The position numbers and the translations under genes were made by a program. A DNA stretch of 48,835 bases from Rhodobacteraceae bacterium F11138 (GTDB taxonomy: Bacteria > Pseudomonadota > Alphaproteobacteria > Rhodobacterales > Rhodobacteraceae). The DNA is taken from the NCBI GenBank assembly GCA_016521575.1, contig JAEKDP010000008.1, forward strand, positions 85,419-134,253, given 5' to 3'. A model generated the notes under the pieces. That model worked only from the letters and a program-made list of their open reading frames with translations. It had not been told where the DNA came from and made no database searches. This document shows, one piece after another, positions 1-48,835 of this stretch. Every line of letters begins with the position of its first letter. The first letter of the stretch is position 1.

Positions 1-2
1 GG

Positions 3-118
3 TGTCGCGTAGCCCTTAATTGTGAGATGGGAAATCCAACGAAATCAACGGCCACCCTTTGCCCTTAAATATGAGATTTTGTCTTTAATTCCGATATTTT
101 TGCCCTTAACCCTGAGAC
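3..118 (+). repeat. Transposon left end: TIR and subterminal repeats
   Basis: The terminal repeat occupies 3-26. Four related 18-bp sites follow in the same orientation at 11-28 (inside the TIR), 60-77, 80-97 and 101-118, each built on (T/A)G(C/T)C(C/T)TTAA and most ending GAGA(T/C). Such arrays are where the TniA/TnsB class of transposase binds. The array runs almost to the tniA start, so the transposase could also repress its own promoter; that is inference. Confidence 0.8.
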
Positions 119-133
119 AGGGTTCGCAGCTTC

Positions 134-1783
134 GTGTGGCAAATATTGATGGATGATGATCGCGACGACTCCGTTGCCGCTGGTGCTGAGGAGGCGCGCA
201 GGGCGGCCGTTCTGCGTCCGCTTGTTCAGGCATATCTCAAAGGAACTGGCAGTCTGGAAAGTGGCATCAATGACGCCGTTTGGGAGCTTGGTGTCAGCAG
301 GGCGACTGTGTGGCGCTGGATAAAGCGTCTGGCCGAAGAGGGTGGGCGCACCAGCGCTCTGGTACCGCGGAAACGGGGCCGCCCGACTGGTACCACCTTG
401 ATATCCGGCAAGGTGGAAGCGGTGATTGAAGAACATCTTCGCCGTTATTTCTTAAGGCGGGAACGTCCAAGCCTGTCGCGCGTCGTGACAGAAATTCGCA
501 GCGCGTGCTGGCAGCAGGGCTTGCAACCGCCGACACGTCGGACGGTTCAGCGCAGGCTGGATGCAATGGATGCCCGCGAAATTGCCAAGGCACGCGAAGG
601 CGCAAAGGCGGCCCGCCAGAAGTTTGCGCCGGTCGTAGGCGACAACAAGGCAAACCAGCCACTGGAGGTCGTGCAAATCGACCATACGCCTGCGGACATC
701 ATTCTCGTCGACAGTTTTGAACGCCAACCAATTGGGCGGCCTTGGGTCACGCTGGCGATCGACGTCGCAACGCGGATGGTGACCGGATATTACACCTCTC
801 TCGAGGCACCTTCGCGTCTGTCGGTGGCGCTTTGCCTGACACAGGCTGTGGCCCCCAAGGCGGAACTTCTGGCGGAATTGGTGTGCAATGTTCCTTGGCC
901 CGCGCAGGGTAAACCGCATAGGATCCACGTCGATAGAGGGCGCGATTTCCGGTCGCAAGCCTTTCGGTCGGCATGTGCGGAATGGGGGATCGATCTGGTC
1001 TATCGGCCGCCAGGCAGTCCTCATTTCGGAGGGCACATCGAACGATTGATCGGCACGATGATGGGGGCCGTGCACCTGTTGCCTGGAACAACGCAATCCT
1101 CGGTCGTGGCCAAGGGCGACTATGACGCCGAGGGCATGGCCACGATGACCTTAAGCGACTTCGATCGCTGGTTTGCTCTGGAAATCTGCCGCTACAACAA
1201 CAGCATTCATTCAAGTCTTGGCTGTACGCCCGTCGCCAAATGGGAGGCACTCTCAGAGCAAATGACAGGCGACATCCCCTTCGAGATGGAAGCTTTTCGG
1301 GTGAGCTTCTTGCCGAGCGAACTGCGTAAGGTCAGGCGTGACGGCATCCATCTGTTCCAGATACGGTACTGGTCGGATGCGCTTGCAGGCCACATTGGGC
1401 GCGGCGATGGGAAGGTGGTCGTTCGCTACGACCCTCGCGATATCTCAATGATCTGGGTCGAATTGGACGATGGCCGGTATGTTGAGGCGCGTTACAGAAA
1501 CTTGGAAATTCCGCCCGTGCCGCTCTGGGAATATCGCGAAGCCATGAAGAAGGCCCGTGCCCTTGGCAAATCCGGGTCCAATGAGTTGGTCTTGGCTGAG
1601 CTGATCCGACAGCAACGCCAGATCGAGTTTGAAAGCCGGGGCCTAACGAAGGCCGAACGCCGATCCCGTGAAAGAAAAGGGACATTGGAGGGCACCAACT
1701 CGGCTGTCTCGAAAACCGAAAGGCTGCGCCCGATCGACACGGGTGATACATCGCGCCCATTGTTCAAAGTGGAGAGATGGTGA
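134..1783 (+). CDS. tniA: TniA-type DDE transposase, copy 1
   Basis: This is the catalytic transposase that joins the element ends to target DNA. The 549-residue length is normal for TniA. A helix-turn-helix lies at about residues 48-66 (ELGVSRATVWRWIKRL). The rve/DDE core follows, with D183 in VVQIDHTPAD, D267 in RIHVDRGRDF and E303 in FGGHIERLIG, then a Mu-type C-terminal beta-barrel region and a basic tail. The GTG at 134 is the longest start; an in-frame ATG at 149 is equally plausible because neither has a clear Shine-Dalgarno. tniB starts two bases after the stop, so the genes are probably translationally coupled. The left-end binding sites sit just upstream and may regulate it. Confidence 0.9.
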   Translation: MWQILMDDDRDDSVAAGAEEARRAAVLRPLVQAYLKGTGSLESGINDAVWELGVSRATVWRWIKRLAEEGGRTSALVPRKRGRPTGTTLISGKVEAVIEEHLRRYFLRRERPSLSRVVTEIRSACWQQGLQPPTRRTVQRRLDAMDAREIAKAREGAKAARQKFAPVVGDNKANQPLEVVQIDHTPADIILVDSFERQPIGRPWVTLAIDVATRMVTGYYTSLEAPSRLSVALCLTQAVAPKAELLAELVCNVPWPAQGKPHRIHVDRGRDFRSQAFRSACAEWGIDLVYRPPGSPHFGGHIERLIGTMMGAVHLLPGTTQSSVVAKGDYDAEGMATMTLSDFDRWFALEICRYNNSIHSSLGCTPVAKWEALSEQMTGDIPFEMEAFRVSFLPSELRKVRRDGIHLFQIRYWSDALAGHIGRGDGKVVVRYDPRDISMIWVELDDGRYVEARYRNLEIPPVPLWEYREAMKKARALGKSGSNELVLAELIRQQRQIEFESRGLTKAERRSRERKGTLEGTNSAVSKTERLRPIDTGDTSRPLFKVERW

Positions 1784-1784
1784 A

Positions 1785-2666
1785 TTGAGGGCAGGGACAA
1801 CAGAGGAAGACGGTCGGATCGCCCTCATTCAATCGGATATCTGGATTGGCTTTCCGCGGGCCGAACAAGTTCTGGACCGTTTGCAGGGTATGATCGAAGC
1901 GCCAAGGCAAACCCGTATGCCTGGCCTTCTTGTGCATGGCGCGTCTGGGATCGGCAAGACGATGATCGCCCGCAACCTGTCGCGCAGATATGCACCGGAA
2001 TATGACCCAGCATCGGGAATTACGCGAACGCCGCTCTTGCTGTTACAAGCACCGCCAGCTCCCGACGAACGGCGGTTCTATCTGCACATCCTGGCGTCCG
2101 TCGGGGCACCGGCCACGGCACTGGGCGCGCGCGCTCAAAATGTGGCCTCCCTCGAAGTCCGTGTTATTGCGCTTTTGCGCGACCTTGGCCTGCGGATGAT
2201 CATGATCGACGAGGTCCACAACCTCTTGGCCGGGACCCACCGCGAACAGCGACGCTTTCTCAATGTTCTTCGTTATCTCAGCAATGAGCTCGAGGTGTCA
2301 CTGATCTGTCTTGGGGTCAGCGAGGCCGTCGACGCCATCCGTGGTGATATCCAGCTTGTCCGACGGCTGGACGAACATCACTTGCCAAACTGGCGCGACG
2401 ATGCCGAGTTCTCGGACATGATCCAGACCCTTATTGCTGCCATGCCACTGGAAAAGAAGTCCAACCTGAAGGTCAAGTCACTCAAGCAGATACTTGCACT
2501 GACCGGTGGGGTGACCTCGCGCATTTTCGCCCTGATCAAGGATCTTTCCATCGACGCCATTATCACAGGCGAGGAATGCATCACCGATGACGCAATCGCA
2601 AAATGGACGCCGGTTTGGTCGCGCCATGCGAACCCCCATCGGCGGCTCCAGAAGTCCCGGGTGTGA
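1785..2666 (+). CDS. tniB: TniB AAA+ ATPase, copy 1
   Basis: This is the ATP-dependent transposition regulator of the TniB/TnsC/MuB class, which selects and marks target DNA for TniA. Walker A is GASGIGKT at residues 52-59, and Walker B is MIMIDEVHN with D142 and E143; a sensor-type LICLGVSEA stretch follows. The frame opens upstream inside tniA, but homologous sequence begins about here. I chose TTG at 1785 because GGAGAG lies about 10 bases ahead of it and it directly follows the tniA stop. An ATG start at 1668 would add 39 low-complexity residues read antiphase to tniA and is unlikely. The 3' end overlaps tniQ. Confidence 0.88.
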   Translation: MRAGTTEEDGRIALIQSDIWIGFPRAEQVLDRLQGMIEAPRQTRMPGLLVHGASGIGKTMIARNLSRRYAPEYDPASGITRTPLLLLQAPPAPDERRFYLHILASVGAPATALGARAQNVASLEVRVIALLRDLGLRMIMIDEVHNLLAGTHREQRRFLNVLRYLSNELEVSLICLGVSEAVDAIRGDIQLVRRLDEHHLPNWRDDAEFSDMIQTLIAAMPLEKKSNLKVKSLKQILALTGGVTSRIFALIKDLSIDAIITGEECITDDAIAKWTPVWSRHANPHRRLQKSRV

Positions 2667-3460
2667 AGCCGCACCCGCTGCCCAAGACTGTCGCGCCGCT
2701 GCCAGACGAGTTGTTGTCAGGTTGGTTGTCTCGGCTGGCGGCGGCCAATTACTGTGATGATGCGGAACTACTGGCTCATCTCAGAATCGATACCGCGCAT
2801 GGCACCGCCTTGAACTTCAACGTCGACGCGGCTGCGGCGGCGGCGGCGAAGATTGCCAACGCCGCACGGGTTGATCCAGATGTTGTGCGATCTTTGACCT
2901 TTCCAGCAATGACGACACGAGAAGCCTCGCTGACGGCCCAGATGCCATTCCAGCATTGCCTGCAATGCTCCAGAGAGGGCCTTTCGCTCAGGCATTGGAG
3001 GCGGGCCTGGGCATTTGACTGCCAGGTTTGCGGGACGAGACTTGTGCAGACCCTTGGCAAACTCCGTGAGGAACAAATATCTGGAAAACTGATATACCGA
3101 GCGCGCCGCGGGGCAGAGATGCTTGAGTGCGCCGCGCGCTCGCGCGGCCCCAAGCAACTTCGGCGCGCAATGCGCGCAGTCACCTTTGCCATGTCACTCA
3201 AAACCTTCCGCGGGGATCCGTCGTTCGCTGTCCAGAACCCCAGATCGGAAGTTAGGCTGTTCTGCCTCGCCGCAATCGCCGCCGCTCGATCTCATCCCTT
3301 GGCTAAGGCAGCCATCGTCAGCAAAAGCATCGACGACTATGCAAGGGTTGCTCTCTTGCGCGCCTTCGAGAAGGAGCCTCGATTGCTTGCCGCGGTTGAT
3401 CACATCGCGCAAAGGTGCGCGAGAAACAGGGGCCCCATGACAGCCGTATCTCACAATTAA
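2663..3460 (+). CDS. tniQ: TniQ zinc-finger targeting protein, copy 1
   Basis: TniQ/TnsD-family proteins bind DNA and recruit the ATPase to the target. The N-terminus has the typical LPDELLSGWLSRLA segment. A zinc finger follows, with Cys pairs C99/C102 (HCLQC) and C120/C123 (CQVCG). The GTG start at 2663 overlaps the tniB stop as GTGA. An ATG at 2603 gives 20 extra residues that do not look like family sequence. At 265 residues this is a short TniQ. Its stop codon lies inside the innermost right-end transposase site, so the gene and the element end are packed together with no spare DNA. Confidence 0.82.
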   Translation: MKPHPLPKTVAPLPDELLSGWLSRLAAANYCDDAELLAHLRIDTAHGTALNFNVDAAAAAAAKIANAARVDPDVVRSLTFPAMTTREASLTAQMPFQHCLQCSREGLSLRHWRRAWAFDCQVCGTRLVQTLGKLREEQISGKLIYRARRGAEMLECAARSRGPKQLRRAMRAVTFAMSLKTFRGDPSFAVQNPRSEVRLFCLAAIAAARSHPLAKAAIVSKSIDDYARVALLRAFEKEPRLLAAVDHIAQRCARNRGPMTAVSHN

Positions 3461-3514
3461 GGGCAAAAATTGTCGCCAAACGGGTCGCGTCTCAGATTAA
3501 AGGGCAACGCGACA
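3448..3514 (-). repeat. Transposon right end: TIR and subterminal repeat
   Basis: Read on the minus strand, the terminal repeat at 3491-3514 begins TGTCGCGTTGCCCTTTAATC and contains one binding-type site. A second site at 3448-3465 reads TGCCCTTAATTGTGAGAT. The right end therefore has two sites against four on the left, the usual asymmetry of Tn7/Tn5053-type ends. Confidence 0.8.
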
Positions 3515-3583
3515 CCAGGATCTATGGTTTGGATGCGGCAATTGCTCGGAGAAGCCAGTCAGCGAGACTCAATCACTTGCTTT

Positions 3584-3603: not shown

Positions 3604-3973
3604 AAAGGCCGCAATAAGACCGAGGATAGAAGCATTGCCTGCGTCATACCTTCCGCCCCCCGCAGCCAAGCGGGCGATCCGCAAGCTCGGGTCCGATATC
3701 CGTGACGCACGTTTGCGCCGCGGCTTGCCGGCGTCTGTTGTCGCCGAGCGGGCGGGTATTGCGCGCTCAACCTACCACAAGATCGAAAAAGGTGATGCTG
3801 GTGTGTCCATCGGCATCTATGCGGCTGTGCTGCAAGCATTGAACCTGATGGATGGATTTGCAGATCTCGCTGATGCCAGGAACGATCCCCAAGGTGCACA
3901 TGCAGCTCTTGAGCGCTTGCCGAAACGCGCTGTTCTTGCGCGCAAGAAGCCTGGCTCCAAGGAGAGCAGCTAG
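3584..3973 (+). CDS. hipB: HipB-like XRE antitoxin / repressor
   Basis: This is a small DNA-binding protein of 129 residues with an XRE/Cro-type helix-turn-helix at about residues 36-90 (SDIRDARLRRGLPASVVAER and IARSTYHKIEKGD). It lies three bases before hipA on the same strand. Members of this family neutralise the HipA kinase and repress the operon. The frame stays open to 3470, into the transposon end. The ATG at 3584 was chosen because it opens the family-like N-terminus MSTYAYIK; no strong Shine-Dalgarno is visible. The C-terminal tail is basic (RKKPGSKE). The gene starts only 70 bases from the transposon end, so its original promoter may have been displaced. Confidence 0.8.
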   Translation: MSTYAYIKAAIRPRIEALPASYLPPPAAKRAIRKLGSDIRDARLRRGLPASVVAERAGIARSTYHKIEKGDAGVSIGIYAAVLQALNLMDGFADLADARNDPQGAHAALERLPKRAVLARKKPGSKESS

Positions 3974-3976
3974 GCC

Positions 3977-5233
3977 ATGGCAGAACGGGTCGTCGAAATC
4001 GACATTGAGCTCGATGGAGCGATGGTGCCTGTCGGCACCATGCGTTGTGTGCCATCCCGGGCGCGCGAAACCGTCGTTTTCGAATACTCGGACGATTGGC
4101 TGAACCGGCCAGAGCGGTTTGCTATTGATCAGGGCGTGCCTCTCTCGCCTGGGCCGTTTGTGCCATCAGGCAACGGAGAGATGTTTCCAGCCCTTGGTGA
4201 CAGTGCCCCAGACAACTGGGGTCGTGCCTTGATGCGGCGTCGGGAACGGCGCCGCGCTGCGCGGGAGGAACGACCGGTTCGAACCTTGTTCGAGACGGAT
4301 TATCTTATGGGTGTCTCCGATGTCAGCCGCATCGGAGCCTTGCGGCTGCGATGGCGTGGCGATGCCGACTATGCAGCACCCATCCAAGATGGCGTTCCAG
4401 GGTACATCGCGCTCCAGCGTCTTCTCGACGCAGTCGGGCGTTTCGAAGCTGGTGAGGAACGAGACGAGGACCTCGATCTCATTTTTGCGCCCGGGGCATC
4501 GCTTGGCGGCGCACGCCCGAAGTGCTCGGTCTATGATGTGCAGGGCAAGCTCTCGATCGCCAAGTTTCCCAAGACTGACGACGATTACAGCAAGGAACGC
4601 TGGGAGGAAGTCGCCGCGCGATTGGCAGATCGGGCCGGCCTGACCATGGCTGACCACTCTCTGGCAAACATCGGTGACCAGCCGGTCTATCTGAGCGCCC
4701 GGTTTGACCGACGCGCAGCAGGCGAACGCATCCCGTATATGTCAGCCATGACCATGACCCAGAACCGGGATGGCGTATCTGGCAGCTATCTCGAGATCGT
4801 AGACGCGATCACCAGGACTGGCAGCCAGGCTACCAGGGATCGTGAAGAACTCTATCGCCGCCTTGTCTTCACTGTTCTGGTGTCGAATACGGACGACCAT
4901 ATGCGCAATCACGGGTTTCTATGGGATGGGCCAGCTGGATGGCGGCTGTCGCCGGCGTTCGACATCAACCCGACGTCCCAGTTGGAAAAACCGCGTGTTC
5001 TGCAGACACGGATCGATTTCGACGACGGGACCTGTGACATTGACTTGGTGTTGGCCGTGGCACCTGAATTCGGCCTCCGCACCCAACACGCCCGGGAAAT
5101 TGTCGCTGAAGTGGCGAGGGCGACAGCGACGTGGCGCGAAGTTGCGCATCAGGTCGGGGCTCCGGCACGCGAGCTCGACTATCTCGAAAGTGCTTTCGAG
5201 CACGACGATCTGGAGAAGGCTTTGACGCTTTAA
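3977..5233 (+). CDS. hipA: HipA-family serine/threonine kinase toxin
   Basis: HipA kinases arrest growth; the E. coli member phosphorylates glutamyl-tRNA synthetase. This 418-residue protein has the full set of motifs: a small N-terminal domain, the phosphate-binding loop SLGGARPK (175-182), the catalytic loop NTDDHMRNHG (304-313), and the metal-binding SPAFDINP (325-332). No truncation is visible, so it should be active. It forms an operon with hipB (gap of three bases). ATG 3977 follows a weak AGGAGAGCAG ribosome site at the hipB end. The stop codon TAA runs into a palindrome resembling the one at the hipB start. The particular target of this HipA cannot be read from sequence. Confidence 0.88.
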   Translation: MAERVVEIDIELDGAMVPVGTMRCVPSRARETVVFEYSDDWLNRPERFAIDQGVPLSPGPFVPSGNGEMFPALGDSAPDNWGRALMRRRERRRAAREERPVRTLFETDYLMGVSDVSRIGALRLRWRGDADYAAPIQDGVPGYIALQRLLDAVGRFEAGEERDEDLDLIFAPGASLGGARPKCSVYDVQGKLSIAKFPKTDDDYSKERWEEVAARLADRAGLTMADHSLANIGDQPVYLSARFDRRAAGERIPYMSAMTMTQNRDGVSGSYLEIVDAITRTGSQATRDREELYRRLVFTVLVSNTDDHMRNHGFLWDGPAGWRLSPAFDINPTSQLEKPRVLQTRIDFDDGTCDIDLVLAVAPEFGLRTQHAREIVAEVARATATWREVAHQVGAPARELDYLESAFEHDDLEKALTL

Positions 5234-5305: not shown

Positions 5306-5584
5306 TCATTCCAATATCTCGACCAGCCTTCCGTAGTCCCGGCTAACCTCCTGTGCCTCGTGAAAGGCGCGTTGGCGCTCGGCGTCCAAGCAGCGGAAGT
5401 ATTCTTGTATGTCGGCAATGTAGCCCTCGAAATCAGAACGGAGCAGATCGGCATATTCTCGAATGTCTTCGGACCGCTCAGGCAGGAAGGGCCGTTCCGG
5501 CGCGGTACATGCATTGGCGATTTGGCCAATCGACGCGAGAGGCACAACAAGACCAAGCAAACCGTATCGAAATGCACAAAACAT
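5306..5584 (-). CDS. Small exported protein, function unknown
   Basis: This protein of about 92 residues has an N-terminal hydrophobic signal (YGLLGLVVPLASIGQIANA) followed by a Cys and then a charged, probably helical domain (SEDIREYADLLRSDFEGYIA, EYFRCLDAERQRAFHEAQEV). It looks like a family of small periplasmic proteins I associate with virB regions of Rhodobacterales plasmids. That match is from memory and moderate. The ATG at 5584 has AAAGGAG 13 bases upstream; a TTG at 5614 is the longer alternative. It points away from the virB remnants. The sequence IANAC is only a weak lipobox, so lipoprotein status is doubtful. Confidence 0.6.
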   Translation of the reverse strand: MFCAFRYGLLGLVVPLASIGQIANACTAPERPFLPERSEDIREYADLLRSDFEGYIADIQEYFRCLDAERQRAFHEAQEVSRDYGRLVEILE

Positions 5585-5768
5585 GCGCAGGGCAAAACTC
5601 CTTTGCCACTTCAAATTTATGGTTTCGTGCGGTAGCTACCTATTGCAGCCAAAGACGGTTCGTCAACTCAAATAAATCGTCTTGCAGTCAATTATGTTGT
5701 CTTGTATCGCCCGTGTGGAAATGTCCCCGCGGGCCGATACTCATGATGAGGAGGGCCCTGGGGAGGTC

Positions 5769-6095
5769 ATGATAGAAGAAGCACCGAATGTGGTCACCGA
5801 AGACGGACTGCGCGGCTTGCTCGCCGAGGGCTACCTCATTGAGGTGGTCTGCAAGGAGAGAGCGGAGAAGCGCCATAACAGCTGGTACGGCTCGTGGGTC
5901 ATCCGCGCCGTCGCCTCTGATGGGCGTGACGACAAGATGCTCGTCACCAGCCGAAGCGTCCTCAAGCTCCGCGACTTCAAAACCATCGTTGGCCTTGTCA
6001 GTTTCCTGGCCGACATGGGCTGTACGACCGCTAACATTCCACTTGAAGAAGGTGGCCGCGAGCGCCACGCCGCGCCTCCGGTCAAAGGCAGCTGA
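5769..6095 (+). CDS. Conserved hypothetical protein upstream of virB1
   Basis: This is a soluble protein of 108 residues with no signal peptide or membrane segment. Its middle, IEVVCKERAEKRHNSWYGSW then VIRAVASDGRDDKMLVTSRS, looks like a small beta-rich fold. I do not recognise a named family. ATG 5769 was chosen over the ATG at 5682 because a strong GGGGAGG ribosome site lies directly ahead. Its 3' end overlaps the probable virB1 start, which places it at the head of the former virB operon. Confidence 0.6.
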   Translation: MIEEAPNVVTEDGLRGLLAEGYLIEVVCKERAEKRHNSWYGSWVIRAVASDGRDDKMLVTSRSVLKLRDFKTIVGLVSFLADMGCTTANIPLEEGGRERHAAPPVKGS

Positions 6096-6192
6096 CCGCG
6101 CGACTGCGCTCGTCGTTGCTTTGGGTACAGGCGTTTGTTCCGCGCCCCCGGCCCTGGCCGACGGTTTCATCTTTTGGCGATTGTATACTTGA
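6052..6192 (+). pseudogene. virB1: virB1 5' fragment (lytic transglycosylase signal peptide)
   Basis: Starting at GTG 6052, overlapping the upstream gene, the frame encodes a basic N-terminus and an export signal (TALVVALGTGVCSAPPALAD), then ends after a few more codons at the IS1595 element. VirB1 is a periplasmic muramidase that opens the wall for the secretion channel. The 3' part of the same gene reappears at 7044-7271. The central catalytic domain, with its glutamate, is missing, so this was insertion followed by deletion. The assignment rests on the 3' fragment and on position before virB2. Confidence 0.55.
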
Positions 6193-6218
6193 CAAACCAC
6201 GCGGGATTCCCATATAAC
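6189..6218 (+). promoter_or_regulatory. Promoter of the IS1595-family transposase
   Basis: TTGACA at 6189-6194 and TATAAC at 6213-6218 are separated by 18 bases, a near-consensus sigma-70 promoter. The palindrome CTAAC-ATATA-GTTAG (6218-6232) overlaps the expected transcription start and could be an operator. Confidence 0.6.
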
Positions 6219-6243
6219 TAACATATAGTTAGAGGAATCCGCC

Positions 6244-7056
6244 ATGTCCGTTCTGTCCGCCAAATACATGCACGACGAAGCCGCCGCATTTGAGCATGTG
6301 GAAGCGATGATCTGGGGTGACGAACCGGTATGCCCGCACTGCGGCACCGTGGGCAACGCTGGCAAGCTGGAAGGTGTTCGCACCAAGCCGAGCAAGAAGA
6401 ACCCGGAAGGCAAAGCGCGCCACGGTCTGTGGAAGTGCCGCGAGTGCCGCAAGCAATTCACCGTGCGCAAGGGCACGATCTTCGAAGAAAGCCACATCCC
6501 GCTTCACCTGTGGCTGCAAGCGATCCACCTGATGGTGTCCAGCAAGAAGGGCATTAGCAGCCACCAACTTCACCGCGTCCTGGGCATCACCTACAAAAGC
6601 GCTTGGTTCCTGTCCCACCGCATTCGCGAGTGTATGCGTGATGGCGCGCTGGCACCGTTTGGCGGCAATGGCGGCACGGTTGAGGTTGATGAAACCTTCA
6701 TCGGTCAAAACCCTGACAAGCCCAAGAAGAAAGGCGCGCGCGGCTTCGCTCATAAGAACGCGATGCTGACCCTTGTGGATCGGGACACCAAGCAAGCCAA
6801 GTCCATCGTGGTTGACGATATCAAGAAGGACACACTGGTGCCGATCCTGCGCGAGAACATCGCCAAGGAAGCCGTGATCTACACAGACGAAGCCAAGCAG
6901 TACACGCGCCTGTCTGACGACTTTGCCGATCACGACTTCACCACGCACAGCAAGGGCGAGTATGTGAAGCGCGAGAAACCCGAGGTTCACACCAACACCG
7001 TCGAAGGCTTCTACAGCATCTTCAAGCGCGGCATACCGCCCGCGACCTCGGCGTAG
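6244..7056 (+). pseudogene. IS1595-family transposase, 3'-truncated
   Basis: The N-terminal zinc ribbon has CPHC (about residues 32-35) and CREC (about 65-68), followed by the helical segment SSKKGISSHQLHRVLGITYK. The DDE-type core shows GGTVEVDETFIG, VIYTDEAKQY and [16 protein letters not shown], all typical of the ISXO2-like/IS1595 family. Family members continue for about 40 more residues after FKRG. Here the frame runs into virB1 sequence and stops after IPPATSA. The right end of the insertion sequence is therefore gone. The catalytic motifs remain, but the element cannot move by itself. A good promoter precedes it, so a truncated protein may still be made. Confidence 0.8.
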
Positions 7057-7271
7057 ACCCACATGACATTGCGCAGAACCTCGACGGATCAGCCCGCTAC
7101 TTGCTGATGATGCTCGACCAGTTCGGCGAAGGCTCTCTGGCCCTTGCGGCCTACAACGCTGGCCCTGAGGCGGTCACACGCCACGGCGGCATCCCCCCTT
7201 TTCGAGAAACCCAAGGGCATGTGGCCCGTGTGACTGCCGTGTTTGAGCGGCTCAGAGGAGATCTTTCATGA
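7044..7271 (+). pseudogene. virB1: virB1 3' fragment (lytic transglycosylase C-terminus)
   Basis: The frame [20 protein letters not shown] then [18 protein letters not shown] matches the C-terminal part of SLT/VirB1 lytic transglycosylases, including the AAYNAGP signature. It ends [17 protein letters not shown] with a stop that overlaps the virB2 start (ATGA). Only the 3' third survives, joined at about 7030-7044 to the truncated IS1595 transposase. It has no start codon of its own. Confidence 0.75.
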
Positions 7272-7558
7272 CATCGAGACCTTCGATCGTCGCGCTCGGC
7301 GCGATGGCCCTTATCGTGCTGGCGGGTCCAGCGCTTGCACAGAGCATCGACCTCTCGCCGGTACAGACCCTGCTTCAAGGAATTGTCGATGCGATCACCG
7401 GTCCCTTGGGGATCGTGATTGGCACGCTCGCACTGATCGGGGTGTTCCTTTCCTGGCTCTTTGGCATCCTCGACTTTCGTCAGGCGCTCTGGGTCGTGGT
7501 TGCAATCGCCGGCATCGCCGCAGCACCCACCATCGTCGCCGCCATCTGGACCACCTGA
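7268..7558 (+). CDS. virB2: VirB2/TrbC-type pilin
   Basis: This is the pilin subunit of a type IV secretion/conjugation system. The 96-residue protein has a signal peptide (residues about 1-25, ending GPALAQ), a short periplasmic loop, and two hydrophobic helices ([19 protein letters not shown] and [20 protein letters not shown]), the classic VirB2 plan. The ATG overlaps the virB1 stop and is preceded by AGAGGAG. The gene is intact but its operon is broken on both sides, so no working apparatus is encoded here. Confidence 0.85.
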
Positions 7559-7567
7559 GCTCTATCC

Positions 7568-7846
7568 ATGGCTGACCAGTCCCGCGTGTTCATCGGTCTT
7601 CTCAGGCCACCCAAGCTGATGGGCTTGCCGATCATGTACGCCATGGTCTGGCTCTTCGGCTCAACGCTTCTGTTCCTCTGGGTGCAGAGCTGGGTGGTGG
7701 CTGTGTTCGCGGGGCTGGCCTGGCCGGCGCTCTGGAAGGCCGCAGACTGGGATCCGAACTTCCTCGATGTCCTGGTGATCACCCTGCAGGAAACCCCGCC
7801 CACGACGAACCGCAAGCTGCACGGAGGCGACAGCTATGCCCCGTGA
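7568..7846 (+). CDS. virB3: VirB3 inner-membrane protein
   Basis: This 92-residue protein starts 10 bases after virB2. It has the VirB3 pattern: a short N-terminus with RVFIGLLRPPKLMGLPIMYA, two membrane segments, and a C-terminal soluble stretch ending KLHGGDSYAP. VirB3 anchors the VirB4 ATPase at the inner membrane. Its stop overlaps the virB4 start by 11 bases. It appears complete. Confidence 0.85.
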   Translation: MADQSRVFIGLLRPPKLMGLPIMYAMVWLFGSTLLFLWVQSWVVAVFAGLAWPALWKAADWDPNFLDVLVITLQETPPTTNRKLHGGDSYAP

Positions 7847-7940
7847 TGGAATTGTCGATGAGGTTGAGAACGCCATCGATCCGCTGACCGCGCTACCCGC
7901 ATGGGTCAAGGGCGAGACGGGTTCATCGAGATTGTGGTGA
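7836..7940 (+). pseudogene. virB4: virB4 5' fragment
   Basis: ATG 7836, with GGAGGCGACAG upstream, opens MPRDGIVDEVENAIDPLTAL then PAWVKGE, the start expected of a VirB4 ATPase in this gene order. After about 25 codons (around 7912) the sequence changes to the flavoprotein reductase fragment read in another frame, and this frame stops at 7940. About 97 percent of virB4 and all later virB genes are missing. Confidence 0.65.
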
Positions 7941-29084: not shown

Positions 29085-29100
29085 CTTAACAGCTGTTAAG
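29085..29100. promoter_or_regulatory. parS: parS-like palindrome 2 (over the repC stop)
   Basis: This is a second exact CTTAACAGCTGTTAAG. The repC stop codon (29096-29098) lies within it. A centromere directly downstream of repC is a known arrangement in repABC replicons. Confidence 0.7.
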
Positions 29101-30307: not shown

Positions 30308-30357
30308 GAAAACGTTCACGAAGGCAAAATTTCTGCGGCCCGCGAATCGCTTTGCGC

Positions 30358-30520: not shown

Positions 30521-31450
30521 TCAGTCTCCTGAACGCTTCCAGCGCTCATGAAGCTCGGTAATCAGCTTTGGGGCGTTGCCCTCCAACCAGCTGATAAAAT
30601 CAGGTTCATCCGTAGTCAGATCGAGTTTAAGCTGCTTGCCTTGGCGGCCGGTCTTGACCGTCGCAGCTCCGACACCGGGGATCGCCAAAGCAGGCACGCC
30701 CTTTCTAGACGGGTTTGCTTTCTTCTCTGGGCTCTTCGCAGCTGCCAGAACTGCGAGAAACGCACGCTCAGAAACCTCATCGACCGAGCCGGAACTTTCG
30801 GACTTGGCTGCATGAGCTACGGCTTGCAGTTGGTCTCGATCACCGTCGTAGGCACCCAAGGCCTTTTTGAGCTCTTCCCATCTCGGGCGACCAATCCCGG
30901 GAGCCGCACCAATTGCCTGGATGAGTTCCTCGCCGACCGTCCGAACGACACTCAAGAGTTGTGAAACCCCAGCTTCGTGGAGGTTAAGGACTTCAGCGAC
31001 ACCTCGATTGGTGCGCTCAGCCCCTTCCAAATGGTCACCGTCCAGAAGCGCCGTCGCAACAAGCGCACGTTCAATAAAGCTCAGATCACGACGCTCTTGG
31101 TTCTCGAGAAGCTGATCTCGAAGCGCTTGATCACCATCAACTTCCGTGACGATGGCTCGAACTTTGATACCGAGTTCGCGACATGCTTCCAGGCGTCTGC
31201 GGCCATAGATCAGGTTGTAGCGATCGCCTTCCAGTGGGCGGACCAAGACAGGCACACGCTGACCGTTCTTGGAGATTGAATTCTTCAGGCCCTCAATTTC
31301 AATCTGAAGCCTGTCATCCAATCGTCCTTCGGTAATAATCTGCGCCGGATCGATCTCAAATACACCGCCACGCAGTCGGCGCCCTTGAAGAGCGTCAGGA
31401 GCGTTGCGAAGGGTCTGCAGCGGCAGGCCAAGTTTAGGCTTTCTTGCCAT
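30521..31450 (-). CDS. repB: Partition protein RepB (ParB family)
   Basis: RepB binds parS and pairs with RepA to segregate plasmid copies. The 309 residues show the ParB core: NSISKNGQRVPVLVRPLEGD, the box YNLIYGRRRLEACRELG (GRRR), LLENQERRDLSFIERA and the helix-turn-helix RGVAEVLNLHEAGVSQLLSV. ATG 31450 starts the family-typical MARKPKLGLPL and overlaps the repA end by 17 bases; upstream residues in frame belong to the overlap. The long gap to repC contains the antisense RNA. Confidence 0.93.
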   Translation of the reverse strand: MARKPKLGLPLQTLRNAPDALQGRRLRGGVFEIDPAQIITEGRLDDRLQIEIEGLKNSISKNGQRVPVLVRPLEGDRYNLIYGRRRLEACRELGIKVRAIVTEVDGDQALRDQLLENQERRDLSFIERALVATALLDGDHLEGAERTNRGVAEVLNLHEAGVSQLLSVVRTVGEELIQAIGAAPGIGRPRWEELKKALGAYDGDRDQLQAVAHAAKSESSGSVDEVSERAFLAVLAAAKSPEKKANPSRKGVPALAIPGVGAATVKTGRQGKQLKLDLTTDEPDFISWLEGNAPKLITELHERWKRSGD

Positions 31451-32627
31451 TCCGCCCCCATGTGTTCTGGATGATTTCAGCGATCTCATCGTTCACTGCG
31501 TTCATGGATTCGATCGCACGATCAAACGTCTGACGCGTGAAGTCCTTCTTGTCAGCTTCGTAGAGCGTTTGCTTGGTCAAGCCGGCATCAGAAATTGCGG
31601 TCGATTCAACCATGTGATTGGTCAGGACCGACCTCCCGAACAGTCCGCGAATGAAAGCGATGACTTCGGTTTGTGGCGCGTCGCCGACTTTGTATCGCGT
31701 TGGCAAAAAGCGCAGCCAATCGAAGCGCAGATTTGCGCCTGCATCCCTGATCACTCCCAGGAGATCCGCGGTCATTCGCAAGAATTGGGACATCGACATG
31801 AGGTCAAGCATTTGCGGGTGAACCGTCACGAGGACACCCGAGGACGCGGAAAGTGCTGACATCGTCAAGAAACCAAGCTGCGGCGGGCAGTCGATCACAA
31901 CAACGTCGTAGTTCGCTTCAACACTATCGAGTGCGTCATGAACTCGCGCGAAGAACGCTTTCGCTCCGCCTCGCTGGATAGCAGCAGGCGTCTCGTGCTC
32001 GAACTCCATGAGTTCTAGGTTGCCCGGGATAAGATCAAGGCCGCGGATGTAGGTCTTGCGGATCACTTCGGCGATCGGAACCGGATCGTCATAGCGAACG
32101 GCATCATAGAGGGTTCCGCCCTCCATAAGGTCGAGTTCTGGCTGGATTCCGTGAAGAGCCGAAAGAGATGCTTGGGGGTCGAGATCGATCGCAAGAACCC
32201 TGTACCCCTTGAGCGCCAAGCGCTGAGCGAGGTGAGCAGACGTCGTCGTTTTGCCGGACCCGCCCTTGAAGTTCACCACTGAAACAACTTGAAGCTCGTC
32301 ACCGTCGCGACGCCCAGGCACGTAAGTTCCAGACTTTTTTGCGTTTCCTTCAAGCGTCTGCCGGATTTCCCAGATATCGTCGAGCGTATAGCGACGATGA
32401 CTTCCAGCCGTCGTCTCAACGTCAACGATCTTTCCTTCTCGATGAAGCTTCCGAAGATAGGTATGGTCGACGCCAAGGAGCTCAGCAGCTTCGCCGCTAG
32501 TCAAAGTGCGCATCACCTTCTTTGCATCCGGAGGGAAGTGTGCGGCGCGCTGAGCATGCAGGTTCGACGCGAGAAGTTCCGCGTAGTGCCCGATGGCGAT
32601 GTCTAGATCCTGCTCTACTTCGCTCAT
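31434..32627 (-). CDS. repA: Partition ATPase RepA (ParA family)
   Basis: This is the ParA-type ATPase of the repABC system; it also represses the operon. At 397 residues it has an N-terminal winged helix (LTSGEAAELLGVDHTYLRKL), the deviant Walker A FKGGSGKTTTSAHLA at about residues 120-135, LAIDLDPQASLSALHGI, and VVVIDCPPQLGFLTMSALSA. ATG 32627 follows TCGGGGCAGAC. It is the first gene of repABC; the 130-base AT-rich leader up to the resolvase stop should hold the promoter, and contains a direct repeat GCGCGTT (about 32647 and 32663). Confidence 0.94.
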   Translation of the reverse strand: MSEVEQDLDIAIGHYAELLASNLHAQRAAHFPPDAKKVMRTLTSGEAAELLGVDHTYLRKLHREGKIVDVETTAGSHRRYTLDDIWEIRQTLEGNAKKSGTYVPGRRDGDELQVVSVVNFKGGSGKTTTSAHLAQRLALKGYRVLAIDLDPQASLSALHGIQPELDLMEGGTLYDAVRYDDPVPIAEVIRKTYIRGLDLIPGNLELMEFEHETPAAIQRGGAKAFFARVHDALDSVEANYDVVVIDCPPQLGFLTMSALSASSGVLVTVHPQMLDLMSMSQFLRMTADLLGVIRDAGANLRFDWLRFLPTRYKVGDAPQTEVIAFIRGLFGRSVLTNHMVESTAISDAGLTKQTLYEADKKDFTRQTFDRAIESMNAVNDEIAEIIQNTWGRNGKKA

Positions 32628-32761: not shown

Positions 32762-33643
32762 TCAGAGGAGCCCCAGCTTTTCAGCACGCTCCAGCAGCAT
32801 TCTGACTGAGGAAGGCTGCCAGCTGGTGCGACCGCGAGGGGTGCGCTCACGCATGGATTCCAGTCGGTCGCAGATTGCCTGCAAGGTGATCTCGGGGTCA
32901 GCACCTTTGATTGCGGCGACAATCGCAGGCAGGCGATCGTCGGTTTCGCGACGTCCAGCGCGTCCAAGCACTTCAGCGGGCAGGAATCCGTCCGCCACGT
33001 ATGCCTTCACGGCGCGGAGCAGGCGGCTTTGCGTCCAGCGCCGATCATGGGGCAGGGGGCCATTGATGATCCGCAGGACATCTTCCCAAGCCATATCGGG
33101 GCGCAAACGGCGCACATGGGGCACCCAATCCTGTGCAGTTTCGTTCAAGCGCTCCATGTAGCCGTCCTGTCGCGCCAGCCGCACCTTGCGCAGCGCTTCA
33201 GGGTCCTTGACGCGAAGACCCGGGTTGCCGCCGACGCGGCCCTTTGAGCGTGCCGAGGCAAGCCCAGCCTTTGTGCGCTCACGTATCAGCGCGCGCTCGA
33301 ACTCGGCCGCGGCGCCCAGAACCTGCAATGTGAATTTTCCTTGAGGGGAGGCGGTGTCGATCGGGTCCTGGAGCGAGCGGAAGAACGCCCCCTTGCCCTC
33401 CAGTCTTTCGATCACCTCAAGTAGGTGCGACAAAGACCGCGCAAGCCGGTCGATCCGCACGACGACCAGCGTGTCGCCCTTGCCAATCCGCTCCAGCACA
33501 CGTGCAAGCACGGGCCGCGCGCGATTGCCGCCCGAGGCGTGCTCTTCAAAGATCTCGGCGCATCCCGCAGACTGCAGTGCCTCAGACTGGGGCAGGGGGG
33601 TCTGATCCTCGGTGGAGACGCGCGCATAGCCAATCAGGGGCAT
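32762..33643 (-). CDS. Serine recombinase (resolvase/invertase family)
   Basis: This protein has 293 residues. The catalytic domain begins MPLIGYARVSTEDQ, with S10 as nucleophile, and includes VVVRIDRLARSLSHLLEVIE and FTLQVLGAAAEFERALIRER. The C-terminal part is longer than in gamma-delta resolvase, with extra helix-turn-helix segments (AWEDVLRIINGPLPHDRRWT; TLQAICDRLESMRERTPRGR). ATG 33643 is taken because upstream codons are AT-rich and not family-like. It may resolve plasmid dimers or belong to a lost transposon. The upstream 33644-33760 region has res-type repeats. Confidence 0.88.
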   Translation of the reverse strand: MPLIGYARVSTEDQTPLPQSEALQSAGCAEIFEEHASGGNRARPVLARVLERIGKGDTLVVVRIDRLARSLSHLLEVIERLEGKGAFFRSLQDPIDTASPQGKFTLQVLGAAAEFERALIRERTKAGLASARSKGRVGGNPGLRVKDPEALRKVRLARQDGYMERLNETAQDWVPHVRRLRPDMAWEDVLRIINGPLPHDRRWTQSRLLRAVKAYVADGFLPAEVLGRAGRRETDDRLPAIVAAIKGADPEITLQAICDRLESMRERTPRGRTSWQPSSVRMLLERAEKLGLL

Positions 33644-33760
33644 GAAACGGGCCGTTTGCAATTTAATATATTGCCAATAAACGACCGTTTGTAAACGGAT
33701 GCAAGGGCACTCTCTGTGGCGGTGTTTACCGGAATGCCCTTGGTTTCTATACAATGAGCG
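33644..33760. repeat. Candidate res site ahead of the resolvase
   Basis: The region contains GGGCCGTTTGCAATTT, a half-inverted partner CAATAAACGACC, and the perfect palindrome CCGTTTGTAAACGG (33685-33698). Clustered inverted repeats just upstream of a serine resolvase gene are typical of res sites. Subsite boundaries are not certain. Confidence 0.45.
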
Positions 33761-44398: not shown

Positions 44399-45100
44399 TC
44401 AAACACCGATATATTTCAGGACACGGTCACGGTCCCGATCCAGGTCCGCGTTCACACCGGACCAGACCACCTGGCCTTTCTCGAGAATGTAATGCCGGTC
44501 TGCCAGACGCTTCAGCGCCGAGAGGTTCTTGTCGATCAGCAGGATCGATTGCCCTTCACCCTTGAGCAATTCGAGAACCCGCCAGATTTCGTCGCGGATG
44601 ACCGGCGCCAGACCTTCGGTGGCCTCGTCGAGGATCAGCAGCAGCGGATTGGTCATCAGGGCGCGGCCCACGACAAGCATCTGCTGTTCGCCGCCCAAGA
44701 GGGTTCCGGCGTTCTGGTTGGCGCGTTCCCTCATGCGCGGAAAGAGGTCATAGATGCGCTCGAGGGTCCAGGGGTTGGACCGTTTCAGGCGATTGGAGGC
44801 CGTCGCCACAAGGTTCTCGCGCACTGTCAGCGTCGAGAAGGTCTGCCGCCCTTCCGGCACCAGCCCGGCACCAAGCCGGGCCACCCGCTCCGGCGTCGCG
44901 CCGGTGATGTCCTGGCCGGTAAAGGAGATGCGGCCGCCTTTCGGCTTGATCAGCCCCATGATGGATCGCACCGTCGTCGTCTTGCCCATGCCATTGCGGC
45001 CCATCAGGGTGATGACCTGGCCGGCCTCGATATCCAGCGAGACATCGAACAGAACCTGGCTGCTGCCATAGCCTGCCTCAAGGTTTTCGACTTTCAGCAT
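44399..45100 (-). CDS. livF: Branched-chain amino-acid-type ABC transporter ATPase LivF
   Basis: This 233-residue ATPase has Walker A GRNGMGKTTT, signature LLGGEQQMLVVGRAL (an LGGEQ variant of LSGGQ) and Walker B LLLILDEATEGLAP. The family-specific GLVPEGRQTFSTLTVRENL is present. ATG 45100 shares one base with the livG stop (TGATG). It normally pairs with LivG and the LivHM permeases to import amino acids or amides. Because livG is cut, this operon is broken and livF may not be transcribed from its own promoter. Confidence 0.92.
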   Translation of the reverse strand: MLKVENLEAGYGSSQVLFDVSLDIEAGQVITLMGRNGMGKTTTVRSIMGLIKPKGGRISFTGQDITGATPERVARLGAGLVPEGRQTFSTLTVRENLVATASNRLKRSNPWTLERIYDLFPRMRERANQNAGTLLGGEQQMLVVGRALMTNPLLLILDEATEGLAPVIRDEIWRVLELLKGEGQSILLIDKNLSALKRLADRHYILEKGQVVWSGVNADLDRDRDRVLKYIGV

Positions 45101-45323
45101 CACGCGTCCTCCGTGCCGAGGTAGGCTTCGCGCACTGTGGGGTCGTTCTGGACCTCCTCGGCGGTGCCGGTCATGATGATGCGCCCATAGACCAGAACCG
45201 AAATCCGGTCCGCCAGCGCATAGACCGCTTCCATGTCGTGTTCGACCAGCAGCATCGCACAGCTGCCGCGCAGGTTGTTCAGAAGCTCGATCATCTGCTG
45301 GCTTTCGTACTGGCCAAGCCCGG
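45100..45323 (-). pseudogene. livG: livG, 3' fragment cut by the transposon
   Basis: The frame GLGQYESQQMIELLNNLRG, then SCAMLLVEHDMEAVYALADR and VLVYGRIIMTGTAEEVQNDP, is the C-terminal third of LivG, beginning just after the Walker B/D-loop region. The transposon's left terminal repeat starts at 45324, exactly where the frame is lost. The 5' part of livG is not found next to the other transposon copy. Confidence 0.85.
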
Positions 45324-45454
45324 TGTCGCGTAGCCCTTAATTGTGAGATGGGAAATCCAACGAAATCAACGGCCACCCTTTGCCCTTAAATATGAGATTT
45401 TGTCTTTAATTCCGATATTTTTGCCCTTAACCCTGAGACAGGGTTCGCAGCTTC

Positions 45455-47104
45455 GTGTGGCAAATATTGATGGATGATGATCGCGACGACTCCGTTGCCG
45501 CTGGTGCTGAGGAGGCGCGCAGGGCGGCCGTTCTGCGTCCGCTTGTTCAGGCATATCTCAAAGGAACTGGCAGTCTGGAAAGTGGCATCAATGACGCCGT
45601 TTGGGAGCTTGGTGTCAGCAGGGCGACTGTGTGGCGCTGGATAAAGCGTCTGGCCGAAGAGGGTGGGCGCACCAGCGCTCTGGTACCGCGGAAACGGGGC
45701 CGCCCGACTGGTACCACCTTGATATCCGGCAAGGTGGAAGCGGTGATTGAAGAACATCTTCGCCGTTATTTCTTAAGGCGGGAACGTCCAAGCCTGTCGC
45801 GCGTCGTGACAGAAATTCGCAGCGCGTGCTGGCAGCAGGGCTTGCAACCGCCGACACGTCGGACGGTTCAGCGCAGGCTGGATGCAATGGATGCCCGCGA
45901 AATTGCCAAGGCACGCGAAGGCGCAAAGGCGGCCCGCCAGAAGTTTGCGCCGGTCGTAGGCGACAACAAGGCAAACCAGCCACTGGAGGTCGTGCAAATC
46001 GACCATACGCCTGCGGACATCATTCTCGTCGACAGTTTTGAACGCCAACCAATTGGGCGGCCTTGGGTCACGCTGGCGATCGACGTCGCAACGCGGATGG
46101 TGACCGGATATTACACCTCTCTCGAGGCACCTTCGCGTCTGTCGGTGGCGCTTTGCCTGACACAGGCTGTGGCCCCCAAGGCGGAACTTCTGGCGGAATT
46201 GGTGTGCAATGTTCCTTGGCCCGCGCAGGGTAAACCGCATAGGATCCACGTCGATAGAGGGCGCGATTTCCGGTCGCAAGCCTTTCGGTCGGCATGTGCG
46301 GAATGGGGGATCGATCTGGTCTATCGGCCGCCAGGCAGTCCTCATTTCGGAGGGCACATCGAACGATTGATCGGCACGATGATGGGGGCCGTGCACCTGT
46401 TGCCTGGAACAACGCAATCCTCGGTCGTGGCCAAGGGCGACTATGACGCCGAGGGCATGGCCACGATGACCTTAAGCGACTTCGATCGCTGGTTTGCTCT
46501 GGAAATCTGCCGCTACAACAACAGCATTCATTCAAGTCTTGGCTGTACGCCCGTCGCCAAATGGGAGGCACTCTCAGAGCAAATGACAGGCGACATCCCC
46601 TTCGAGATGGAAGCTTTTCGGGTGAGCTTCTTGCCGAGCGAACTGCGTAAGGTCAGGCGTGACGGCATCCATCTGTTCCAGATACGGTACTGGTCGGATG
46701 CGCTTGCAGGCCACATTGGGCGCGGCGATGGGAAGGTGGTCGTTCGCTACGACCCTCGCGATATCTCAATGATCTGGGTCGAATTGGACGATGGCCGGTA
46801 TGTTGAGGCGCGTTACAGAAACTTGGAAATTCCGCCCGTGCCGCTCTGGGAATATCGCGAAGCCATGAAGAAGGCCCGTGCCCTTGGCAAATCCGGGTCC
46901 AATGAGTTGGTCTTGGCTGAGCTGATCCGACAGCAACGCCAGATCGAGTTTGAAAGCCGGGGCCTAACGAAGGCCGAACGCCGATCCCGTGAAAGAAAAG
47001 GGACATTGGAGGGCACCAACTCGGCTGTCTCGAAAACCGAAAGGCTGCGCCCGATCGACACGGGTGATACATCGCGCCCATTGTTCAAAGTGGAGAGATG
47101 GTGA
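45455..47104 (+). CDS. tniA: TniA-type DDE transposase, copy 2
   Basis: This protein is identical to the 549-residue transposase at 134-1783, with D183, D267 and E303 retained. Start alternatives are GTG 45455 or ATG 45470. Its promoter would lie in the left-end repeat array and drive transcription away from livG. Confidence 0.9.
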   Translation: MWQILMDDDRDDSVAAGAEEARRAAVLRPLVQAYLKGTGSLESGINDAVWELGVSRATVWRWIKRLAEEGGRTSALVPRKRGRPTGTTLISGKVEAVIEEHLRRYFLRRERPSLSRVVTEIRSACWQQGLQPPTRRTVQRRLDAMDAREIAKAREGAKAARQKFAPVVGDNKANQPLEVVQIDHTPADIILVDSFERQPIGRPWVTLAIDVATRMVTGYYTSLEAPSRLSVALCLTQAVAPKAELLAELVCNVPWPAQGKPHRIHVDRGRDFRSQAFRSACAEWGIDLVYRPPGSPHFGGHIERLIGTMMGAVHLLPGTTQSSVVAKGDYDAEGMATMTLSDFDRWFALEICRYNNSIHSSLGCTPVAKWEALSEQMTGDIPFEMEAFRVSFLPSELRKVRRDGIHLFQIRYWSDALAGHIGRGDGKVVVRYDPRDISMIWVELDDGRYVEARYRNLEIPPVPLWEYREAMKKARALGKSGSNELVLAELIRQQRQIEFESRGLTKAERRSRERKGTLEGTNSAVSKTERLRPIDTGDTSRPLFKVERW

Positions 47105-47105
47105 A

Positions 47106-47987
47106 TTGAGGGCAGGGACAACAGAGGAAGACGGTCGGATCGCCCTCATTCAATCGGATATCTGGATTGGCTTTCCGCGGGCCGAACAAGTTCTGGACCG
47201 TTTGCAGGGTATGATCGAAGCGCCAAGGCAAACCCGTATGCCTGGCCTTCTTGTGCATGGCGCGTCTGGGATCGGCAAGACGATGATCGCCCGCAACCTG
47301 TCGCGCAGATATGCACCGGAATATGACCCAGCATCGGGAATTACGCGAACGCCGCTCTTGCTGTTACAAGCACCGCCAGCTCCCGACGAACGGCGGTTCT
47401 ATCTGCACATCCTGGCGTCCGTCGGGGCACCGGCCACGGCACTGGGCGCGCGCGCTCAAAATGTGGCCTCCCTCGAAGTCCGTGTTATTGCGCTTTTGCG
47501 CGACCTTGGCCTGCGGATGATCATGATCGACGAGGTCCACAACCTCTTGGCCGGGACCCACCGCGAACAGCGACGCTTTCTCAATGTTCTTCGTTATCTC
47601 AGCAATGAGCTCGAGGTGTCACTGATCTGTCTTGGGGTCAGCGAGGCCGTCGACGCCATCCGTGGTGATATCCAGCTTGTCCGACGGCTGGACGAACATC
47701 ACTTGCCAAACTGGCGCGACGATGCCGAGTTCTCGGACATGATCCAGACCCTTATTGCTGCCATGCCACTGGAAAAGAAGTCCAACCTGAAGGTCAAGTC
47801 ACTCAAGCAGATACTTGCACTGACCGGTGGGGTGACCTCGCGCATTTTCGCCCTGATCAAGGATCTTTCCATCGACGCCATTATCACAGGCGAGGAATGC
47901 ATCACCGATGACGCAATCGCAAAATGGACGCCGGTTTGGTCGCGCCATGCGAACCCCCATCGGCGGCTCCAGAAGTCCCGGGTGTGA
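47106..47987 (+). CDS. tniB: TniB AAA+ ATPase, copy 2
   Basis: This is identical to the ATPase at 1785-2666, with Walker A GASGIGKT and Walker B MIMIDE intact. It begins at TTG two bases after the tniA stop and overlaps tniQ by four bases. Confidence 0.88.
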   Translation: MRAGTTEEDGRIALIQSDIWIGFPRAEQVLDRLQGMIEAPRQTRMPGLLVHGASGIGKTMIARNLSRRYAPEYDPASGITRTPLLLLQAPPAPDERRFYLHILASVGAPATALGARAQNVASLEVRVIALLRDLGLRMIMIDEVHNLLAGTHREQRRFLNVLRYLSNELEVSLICLGVSEAVDAIRGDIQLVRRLDEHHLPNWRDDAEFSDMIQTLIAAMPLEKKSNLKVKSLKQILALTGGVTSRIFALIKDLSIDAIITGEECITDDAIAKWTPVWSRHANPHRRLQKSRV

Positions 47988-48781
47988 AGCCGCACCCGCT
48001 GCCCAAGACTGTCGCGCCGCTGCCAGACGAGTTGTTGTCAGGTTGGTTGTCTCGGCTGGCGGCGGCCAATTACTGTGATGATGCGGAACTACTGGCTCAT
48101 CTCAGAATCGATACCGCGCATGGCACCGCCTTGAACTTCAACGTCGACGCGGCTGCGGCGGCGGCGGCGAAGATTGCCAACGCCGCACGGGTTGATCCAG
48201 ATGTTGTGCGATCTTTGACCTTTCCAGCAATGACGACACGAGAAGCCTCGCTGACGGCCCAGATGCCATTCCAGCATTGCCTGCAATGCTCCAGAGAGGG
48301 CCTTTCGCTCAGGCATTGGAGGCGGGCCTGGGCATTTGACTGCCAGGTTTGCGGGACGAGACTTGTGCAGACCCTTGGCAAACTCCGTGAGGAACAAATA
48401 TCTGGAAAACTGATATACCGAGCGCGCCGCGGGGCAGAGATGCTTGAGTGCGCCGCGCGCTCGCGCGGCCCCAAGCAACTTCGGCGCGCAATGCGCGCAG
48501 TCACCTTTGCCATGTCACTCAAAACCTTCCGCGGGGATCCGTCGTTCGCTGTCCAGAACCCCAGATCGGAAGTTAGGCTGTTCTGCCTCGCCGCAATCGC
48601 CGCCGCTCGATCTCATCCCTTGGCTAAGGCAGCCATCGTCAGCAAAAGCATCGACGACTATGCAAGGGTTGCTCTCTTGCGCGCCTTCGAGAAGGAGCCT
48701 CGATTGCTTGCCGCGGTTGATCACATCGCGCAAAGGTGCGCGAGAAACAGGGGCCCCATGACAGCCGTATCTCACAATTAA
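47984..48781 (+). CDS. tniQ: TniQ zinc-finger targeting protein, copy 2
   Basis: This is identical to the protein at 2663-3460, with both CxxC pairs present. The GTG start overlaps tniB; the stop lies inside the inner right-end binding site. ATG 47924 is the longer alternative start. Confidence 0.82.
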   Translation: MKPHPLPKTVAPLPDELLSGWLSRLAAANYCDDAELLAHLRIDTAHGTALNFNVDAAAAAAAKIANAARVDPDVVRSLTFPAMTTREASLTAQMPFQHCLQCSREGLSLRHWRRAWAFDCQVCGTRLVQTLGKLREEQISGKLIYRARRGAEMLECAARSRGPKQLRRAMRAVTFAMSLKTFRGDPSFAVQNPRSEVRLFCLAAIAAARSHPLAKAAIVSKSIDDYARVALLRAFEKEPRLLAAVDHIAQRCARNRGPMTAVSHN

Positions 48782-48835
48782 GGGCAAAAATTGTCGCCAA
48801 ACGGGTCGCGTCTCAGATTAAAGGGCAACGCGACA

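Follow-up and report, generated by a model that had tools for sequence, protein, structure and literature searches.

Identical tniABQ transposon copies at the ends of a repABC plasmid contig from Rhodobacteraceae bacterium F11138

We analysed a stretch of 48,835 nucleotides of the draft genome of Rhodobacteraceae bacterium F11138 (GCA_016521575.1), called the window below, which occupies positions 85419–134253 of scaffold JAEKDP010000008.1 (C27 in our numbering). The window has a G+C content of 61%, contains no tRNA gene according to ARAGORN, and carries repA, repB and repC together, which identifies it as a repABC plasmid. It begins and ends with the same sequence, a small transposon with the genes tniA, tniB and tniQ preceded by GG: positions 1–3514 and 45322–48835 are identical at 3514 of 3514 bases, as the first-pass annotation of this DNA had reported. 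That annotation left two models open, namely two recent direct copies forming a pseudo-composite unit and one copy on a 45.3 kb circle. Leaving both open was right, and neither of them is complete; a circle of 64.6 kb with two direct copies, in which the window is joined to a second contig with the same ends, fits best.

The repeated element and its assembly context

The terminal identity is not due to chance, because the repeat is a 3,512-bp tniABQ transposon without a resolvase, lying at 3–3514 and 45324–48835 in direct orientation with GG in front of both copies (Table 1); up to a length of 9,999 bases, this repeat with its GG is the only sequence with which the window both begins and ends. 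The bases of its terminal inverted repeat match at 21 of 25 positions. The three consecutive genes fill 134–3460 of the 3,514 bases, so that there is no cargo and no room for a resolvase gene, and neither a res site nor tniR was seen in the element, in which no search was aimed at the res site as such.

According to passages of one paper (PMC7765201), transposons of the Tn5053/Tn402 family are laid out as tniABQ-res-tniR and have inverted repeats of 25 bp and direct repeats of 5 bp; Tn5053-type elements transpose replicatively via cointegrates, which are resolved by res-TniR, with 5-bp repeats as flanks, and these cointegrates are long-lived at sites lacking an external resolvase. The window element resembles this family of res site hunters in the order of tniA, tniB and tniQ, in its imperfect terminal inverted repeat and perhaps, in some of its relatives, in 5-bp duplications, but differs from it in having no visible res site or tniR, no cargo and a length of only 3.5 kb. 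Subterminal repeat arrays, which the window element also has, are a further feature of the family, and the 19-base repeats of the left end are, by analogy, presumably transposase binding sites. No paper on this tniABQ element in Rhodobacterales was found in searches of open-licence papers.

The host genome consists of 4,478,742 bases in 28 contigs, and the window is a single assembled contig between two scaffold gaps, since exactly 50 N adjoin it on each side (C27:85369–85418 and 134254–134303) and C27 contains no other N. A search of the host genome with the repeat, in which 40 of 45 candidates were scored, gave seven matches. Four are full and identical, all at contig ends or gaps: the two ends of the window and the two ends of contig C13 (22,794 bases), which has the full repeat at its start and at its end. 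A 105-base piece with 79% identity lies in contig C8, and a diverged relative of the tniA/tniB region is found on the same scaffold as the window, at C27:160569–162472, as two repeat matches with 65–66% DNA identity.

The sequences adjoining the repeat indicate how these ends came to be identical. To its left, the window's right end reads ..AAGCCCGG and the right end of C13 reads ..GTGCGGAGG, that is, ..AAGCCC versus ..GTGCGGA in front of GG, so that GG is common to both and the contexts then diverge (C versus A); to its right, CCAGG.. of the window and GCGAG.. of C13 diverge from the first base (C versus G). The repeat measures 3,514 rather than 3,512 bases because the left contexts share GG and the right contexts differ immediately. 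Since the window ends adjoin 50-N gaps, GG at bases 1–2 is uninformative on what truly flanks the left copy, and the ends, though perfectly identical, do not for the same reason provide independent evidence of a recent duplication. The first-pass annotation had noted that GG fits CCAGG in the two-copy model; this clue falls away because GG is an assembly by-product common to both left contexts. A single collapsed repeat that was written at both ends would produce such identity, and the bracketing pattern is for the most part an effect of assembly. Elsewhere, too, the element forms contigs of about its own length (Croceicoccus gelatinilyticus, 3,507 bases; Pelagimonas phthalicica, 3,506; Maritimibacter dapengensis, 3,506), a contig of 3,508 bases in Pontibrevibacter nitratireducens consists of GG followed by the element, and contig C7 of Croceicoccus mobilis (83,175 bases) carries full direct copies at its two ends.

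Table 1. Features of the window and the evidence for each
Feature	Position	Strand	Basis
GG common to both assembled left contexts; unreliable as local flank	1–2		flank comparison
Left copy of the 3,512-bp tniABQ element	3–3514	+	self-identity, genes, terminal repeats
Four 19-base left-end repeats (9–27, 58–76, 78–96, 99–117)	9–117		68–84% to reference copy
tniA, transposase	134–1783	+	Mu-transpos_C 2.9e-21, rve 5.2e-09
tniB, ATPase, start inferred	1785–2666	+	TniB 4e-58
tniQ, start inferred	2663–3460	+	TniQ 1.1e-09
Two 18-base right-end repeats (3449–3466, 3490–3507)	3449–3507		repeat comparison
CCAGG, right flank of left copy; also at uninterrupted Sagittula stellata site	3515–3519		flank comparison
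Helix-turn-helix and HipA-like genes beside left copy	3635–5233	+	protein family matches
repC, replication initiator	29096–30319	-	RepABC_RepC 6.2e-144
repB, partition	30521–31489	-	2e-62
repA, partition	31434–32627	-	2.7e-179
Serine recombinase (resolvase) gene; close relative split across C27 gaps	32762–33754	-	sequence comparison
178-base stretch, identical to ends of both C27 halves (assembly tangle)	33399–33576		sequence comparison
livF-like ATP-binding cassette transporter ATPase	44399–45124	-	sequence analysis
livG 3' remnant, cut at right copy	45112–45323	-	residues 177–247 of 251-residue LivG, 62%
CCCGG, left flank of right copy	45319–45323		flank comparison
Right copy of the tniABQ element	45324–48835	+	identity to left copy

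Relatives of the element and their flanks

At least 80% of the element was found in one place in 54 of 72,556 plasmid records, and the best 30 of these 54 have 91.7–93.2% identity. The transposon is thus a fairly common one in marine bacteria. The elements on Rhodobacterales plasmids (for example those of Phaeobacter, Salipiger, Sulfitobacter and Celeribacter) have the same three genes and the same ends as the window copies, but differ from them by about 8% at the DNA level, and most intact relatives measure 3,506 bp instead of 3,512 bp.

Flanks were compared in 63 distinct intact relatives of about 88–96% identity, whose copies were aligned end to end in one piece; copies that agreed in the 12 flanking bases at both sides entered the count a single time, two were excluded for lack of a clear end, and 13 distinct copies reaching a contig end were listed apart. 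The left and right five bases match at 0 positions in 9 relatives, at 1 in 14, at 2 in 21, at 3 in 14, at 4 in 3 and at 5 in 2, and cross-pairing of the same flanks gives shares of 0.104, 0.275, 0.354, 0.196, 0.063 and 0.008 for 0–5 matches. The target duplication was accordingly rejected as a discriminator between models, because the match counts in the relatives follow chance cross-pairing. The targets of the element favour NCNGN. The window flanks CCAGG and CCCGG read as the first-pass annotation had given them and match at four of five bases; judged by the flanks of its relatives, this match is uninformative and within the expectation from the NCNGN preference, since the distribution of matches in the relatives is that of cross-paired flanks. 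Five of 51 left flanks of 12 bases recur with different right flanks (6, 4, 3, 2 and 2 of them), and three of 60 right flanks recur with two left flanks each; in such comparisons the element copies look like exchange points.

Members of the Tn5053/Tn402 family insert at res sites beside resolvase genes. Serine recombinase genes lie beside the present element in a few cases. With three recombinases as queries, 130 flanks (98 of at least 1 kb) gave a match within 1.5 kb of the element in eight, in every case to the left of the element, where tniA lies, and with the gene start facing it. The match reaches the element and is cut there in loci L058, L063 and L077; L045, L084, L108 and L137 are other loci with a left-side match. 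On C13 (18494–19282) the open frame of the serine recombinase stops 123 bases from the element, and this gap could be a candidate position for a res site. Two direct copies 3.0–3.8 kb apart form short units in NZ_CP123975, NZ_CP014803 and NZ_CP010611, and the unit of NZ_CP014803 contains the hypothetical protein WP_024099412, which is also found near the element in NZ_CP010590 and NZ_CP045624.

Pairs of direct copies lying on the same contig, 13 in all (some with a copy in common, some not neighbours), gave three perfect 5-base matches in 26 comparisons, against an expectation of 0.22 based on the cross-pairing share: an outer CCAGG duplication in Sulfitobacter pontiacus pDSM110277_d, an outer ACCGT duplication in Roseovarius aestuarii NODE_33 and an inner CCTGA duplication in Salipiger abyssi pPABY3. 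Three perfect duplications are as expected of cointegrates. The 13.7-kb segment between the pDSM110277_d copies was compared with bases 23000–60000 of S. pontiacus NZ_CP139705 (91,780 bases). Over its first 1,413 bases the segment is identical to the end of the NZ_CP139705 element (142 bases) and the DNA that follows on the right, the last part of the segment aligns over 9,995 positions with 98.3% identity and ends exactly at the left border of that element, and a middle stretch matches at 75%. This alignment suggests that the segment is a plasmid that was opened at its element, joined into another plasmid and partly deleted or replaced. No replication gene is listed between the pDSM110277_d copies in a gene table that is incomplete, and with two direct copies around such a cargo the unit resembles the one proposed here around C13; it differs in having a perfect outer CCAGG in a closed record, whereas the window and C13 reach four of five bases at best and are not closed.

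Arrangement of the copies

The last 713 bases of C27 before the left gap match the window resolvase gene at 92%, and the first 138 bases after the right gap match it at 99%. Both halves of C27 reach into a 178-base stretch (window 33399–33576): its first 95 bases form the end of the left half and its last 95 bases the beginning of the right half, each half departs from the window at the next base, and the two overlap each other by 12. We read the halves as one resolvase gene because both end in the shared stretch and overlap by 12, and at a repeat of 178 bases a de Bruijn assembler working with k near 95 would be expected to produce such a break. That the 12 bases are a real target duplication at the gaps was rejected on the ground that each half enters the stretch by exactly 95 bases. 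The left half of C27 has its own repC, repB and repA, arranged as in the window and with 57, 41 and 66% identity to its genes; most probably the window is a separate plasmid whose placement in C27 is an error. The second repABC-resolvase block (C27:80101–85368 plus 134304–134441) has the layout of the window's, and its resolvase shows 98% protein identity to that of the window over 243 residues, versus only 57% for RepC. The similarity to the window resolvase gene ends at C27:134441 and resumes at 135848, and between these points lies a reading frame that resembles, by eye, an IS110-type transposase.

In the C13 interior (15.8 kb), 14 proteins were scanned, chosen as likely genes and not as every reading frame: four of the amidohydrolase family, one of which looks like a hydantoinase, a LysR protein, an Asp/Glu/hydantoin racemase, a nitrilase, products of five oligopeptide-transporter genes, a glyoxalase and the serine recombinase. 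No replication protein is among these 14, and a separate C13 ring should therefore not persist. The first 6 kb of the interior have a partial match in 26 of 394 family genomes, the host genome included, and coverage in plasmids is at most 5% in the best 15 of 101 records. Positions 3547–18010 of C13 form a catabolic island (amidohydrolase-family enzymes, racemase, nitrilase and peptide transporter) with the element on both sides.

Two copies with four flanks can be closed in only two ways, into one ring of 64,601 bp or into rings of 45,321 and 19,280 bp. Because C13 is without a replication protein among the scanned ones, we favour the single ring, and consider it somewhat more probable than its negation that the real molecule is one 64,601-bp repABC ring with two direct tniABQ copies. 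One arc would be the window interior (41.8 kb, with repABC) and the other the C13 interior with its amidohydrolase and peptide-transporter genes. A Tn5053/Tn402-like element without a resolvase would leave, by replicative transposition, cointegrates with two direct copies, and long-lived fusions of this kind are expected because the element has room for three transposition genes only; they would persist until host recombination or deletion alters them. The hip region is uninterrupted in Sagittula stellata and its homology with the window begins exactly at 3515, at CCAGG; therefore the left copy, or its ancestor, inserted there. When 2.5 kb of S. stellata upstream DNA were searched in the genome for the original hip neighbour, the matches were limited to 151 bases with 80% and 512 bases with 65% identity. 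At the right copy, livG is cut as previously described: a genome search with the Paroceanicella LivG (150 of 170 candidates scored) listed numerous full-length paralogues besides the 3' remnant at the edge of the window, and the 5' half is not among the matches listed. One-ended rearrangements at the copies may have removed both the livG 5' half and the original hip neighbour, and both losses would be explained either by an adjacent deletion or by exchange between the copies.

The first-pass circle of 45,321 bp with one copy, the other copy lying on a 19,280-bp circle or elsewhere with C13, accords with the presence of repA, repB and repC in the window and with the match of the flanks at four of five bases, and a one-ended (adjacent) deletion by the resident element would give such a junction and explain the lost livG half. 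The circular form fits, but one copy leaves C13, with the same element at both ends, unexplained, a C13 circle lacks a replication protein among those scanned, and 6.3% of cross-pairings of real element flanks reach four of five; we regard this arrangement as unlikely. More improbable still is that the element has further sites, with flanks that are unassembled or also end in GG, in which case the window and C13 need not be joined. Collapsed repeats do hide copy number, and elsewhere the element is a lone 3.5-kb contig with a high coverage in its name (861.9 in Croceicoccus gelatinilyticus; 528.1), but no other contig with a near-identical piece was found among the scored candidates, although contigs adjacent to the repeat should keep about 95 bases, and a third left context would have to end in GG. 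The scaffold itself makes the window a large pseudo-composite unit within the replicon C27, bordered on either outer side by unrelated DNA, and fused plasmids with two replication systems exist. This two-copy unit, as first drawn, is very improbable: the C27 halves are parts of one resolvase gene with the overlap predicted by the graph break, C27 has its own repABC, the scaffold is probably wrong there, and the livG 5' half did not appear among the listed matches.

Several points weigh against the single 64,601-bp ring. No pairing of the four flanks, compared by hand, yields a perfect 5-base duplication; copy by copy, one ring gives matches of 2/5 and 3/5, and two rings give 4/5 and 2/5. Ten of the 13 direct pairs described above lack a perfect duplication as well. 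No reason was found for the scaffolder's placement of the window within C27, C13 could carry a replication function of an undescribed type, two copies is a minimum, and the ring size, the copy number and the link between window and C13 are what we infer. As to other signatures, the outer flanks around C13 in one ring would be CCCGG and CCAGG, a match of 4/5 where a composite transposon is recognized by one duplication, and the overlap of the window ends falls exactly on the repeat that C13 has too, where a circle with redundant ends would have one copy per ring and an overlap due to chance in assembly.

Other genes of the window and meaning of the element

The window also contains, by plasmid annotation, a type IV secretion remnant at 5306–7917 (transglycosylase, VirB2, VirB3 and part of VirB4), inside which lies an IS1595-type transposase at 6244–7056. 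A possible RES/Xre toxin-antitoxin pair is found by repABC at 25441–26549, the RES member being named from the annotation of similar plasmids and the Xre-type antitoxin match (3.7e-06) being under the family cut-off.

A contig bracketed by perfect direct repeats is not necessarily either a composite transposon or a circle, and the length of the repeat, including two extra bases as here, can reflect the context in which an assembly repeat collapsed. IS26 is an element by which replicons are fused, and we tentatively suggest, as a possibility short of an even chance, that the resolvase-less tniABQ transposon is in a similar manner a replicon-fusing and flank-shuffling unit across Rhodobacterales plasmids, with unresolved cointegrates, copies that serve as exchange points and flanks that lose their matching duplications, the window and C13 being one 64.6-kb product. 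The cointegrate history of the window, while unproven, is instructive; if it is true, plasmids of marine Rhodobacterales are mixed with the help of a widespread element.

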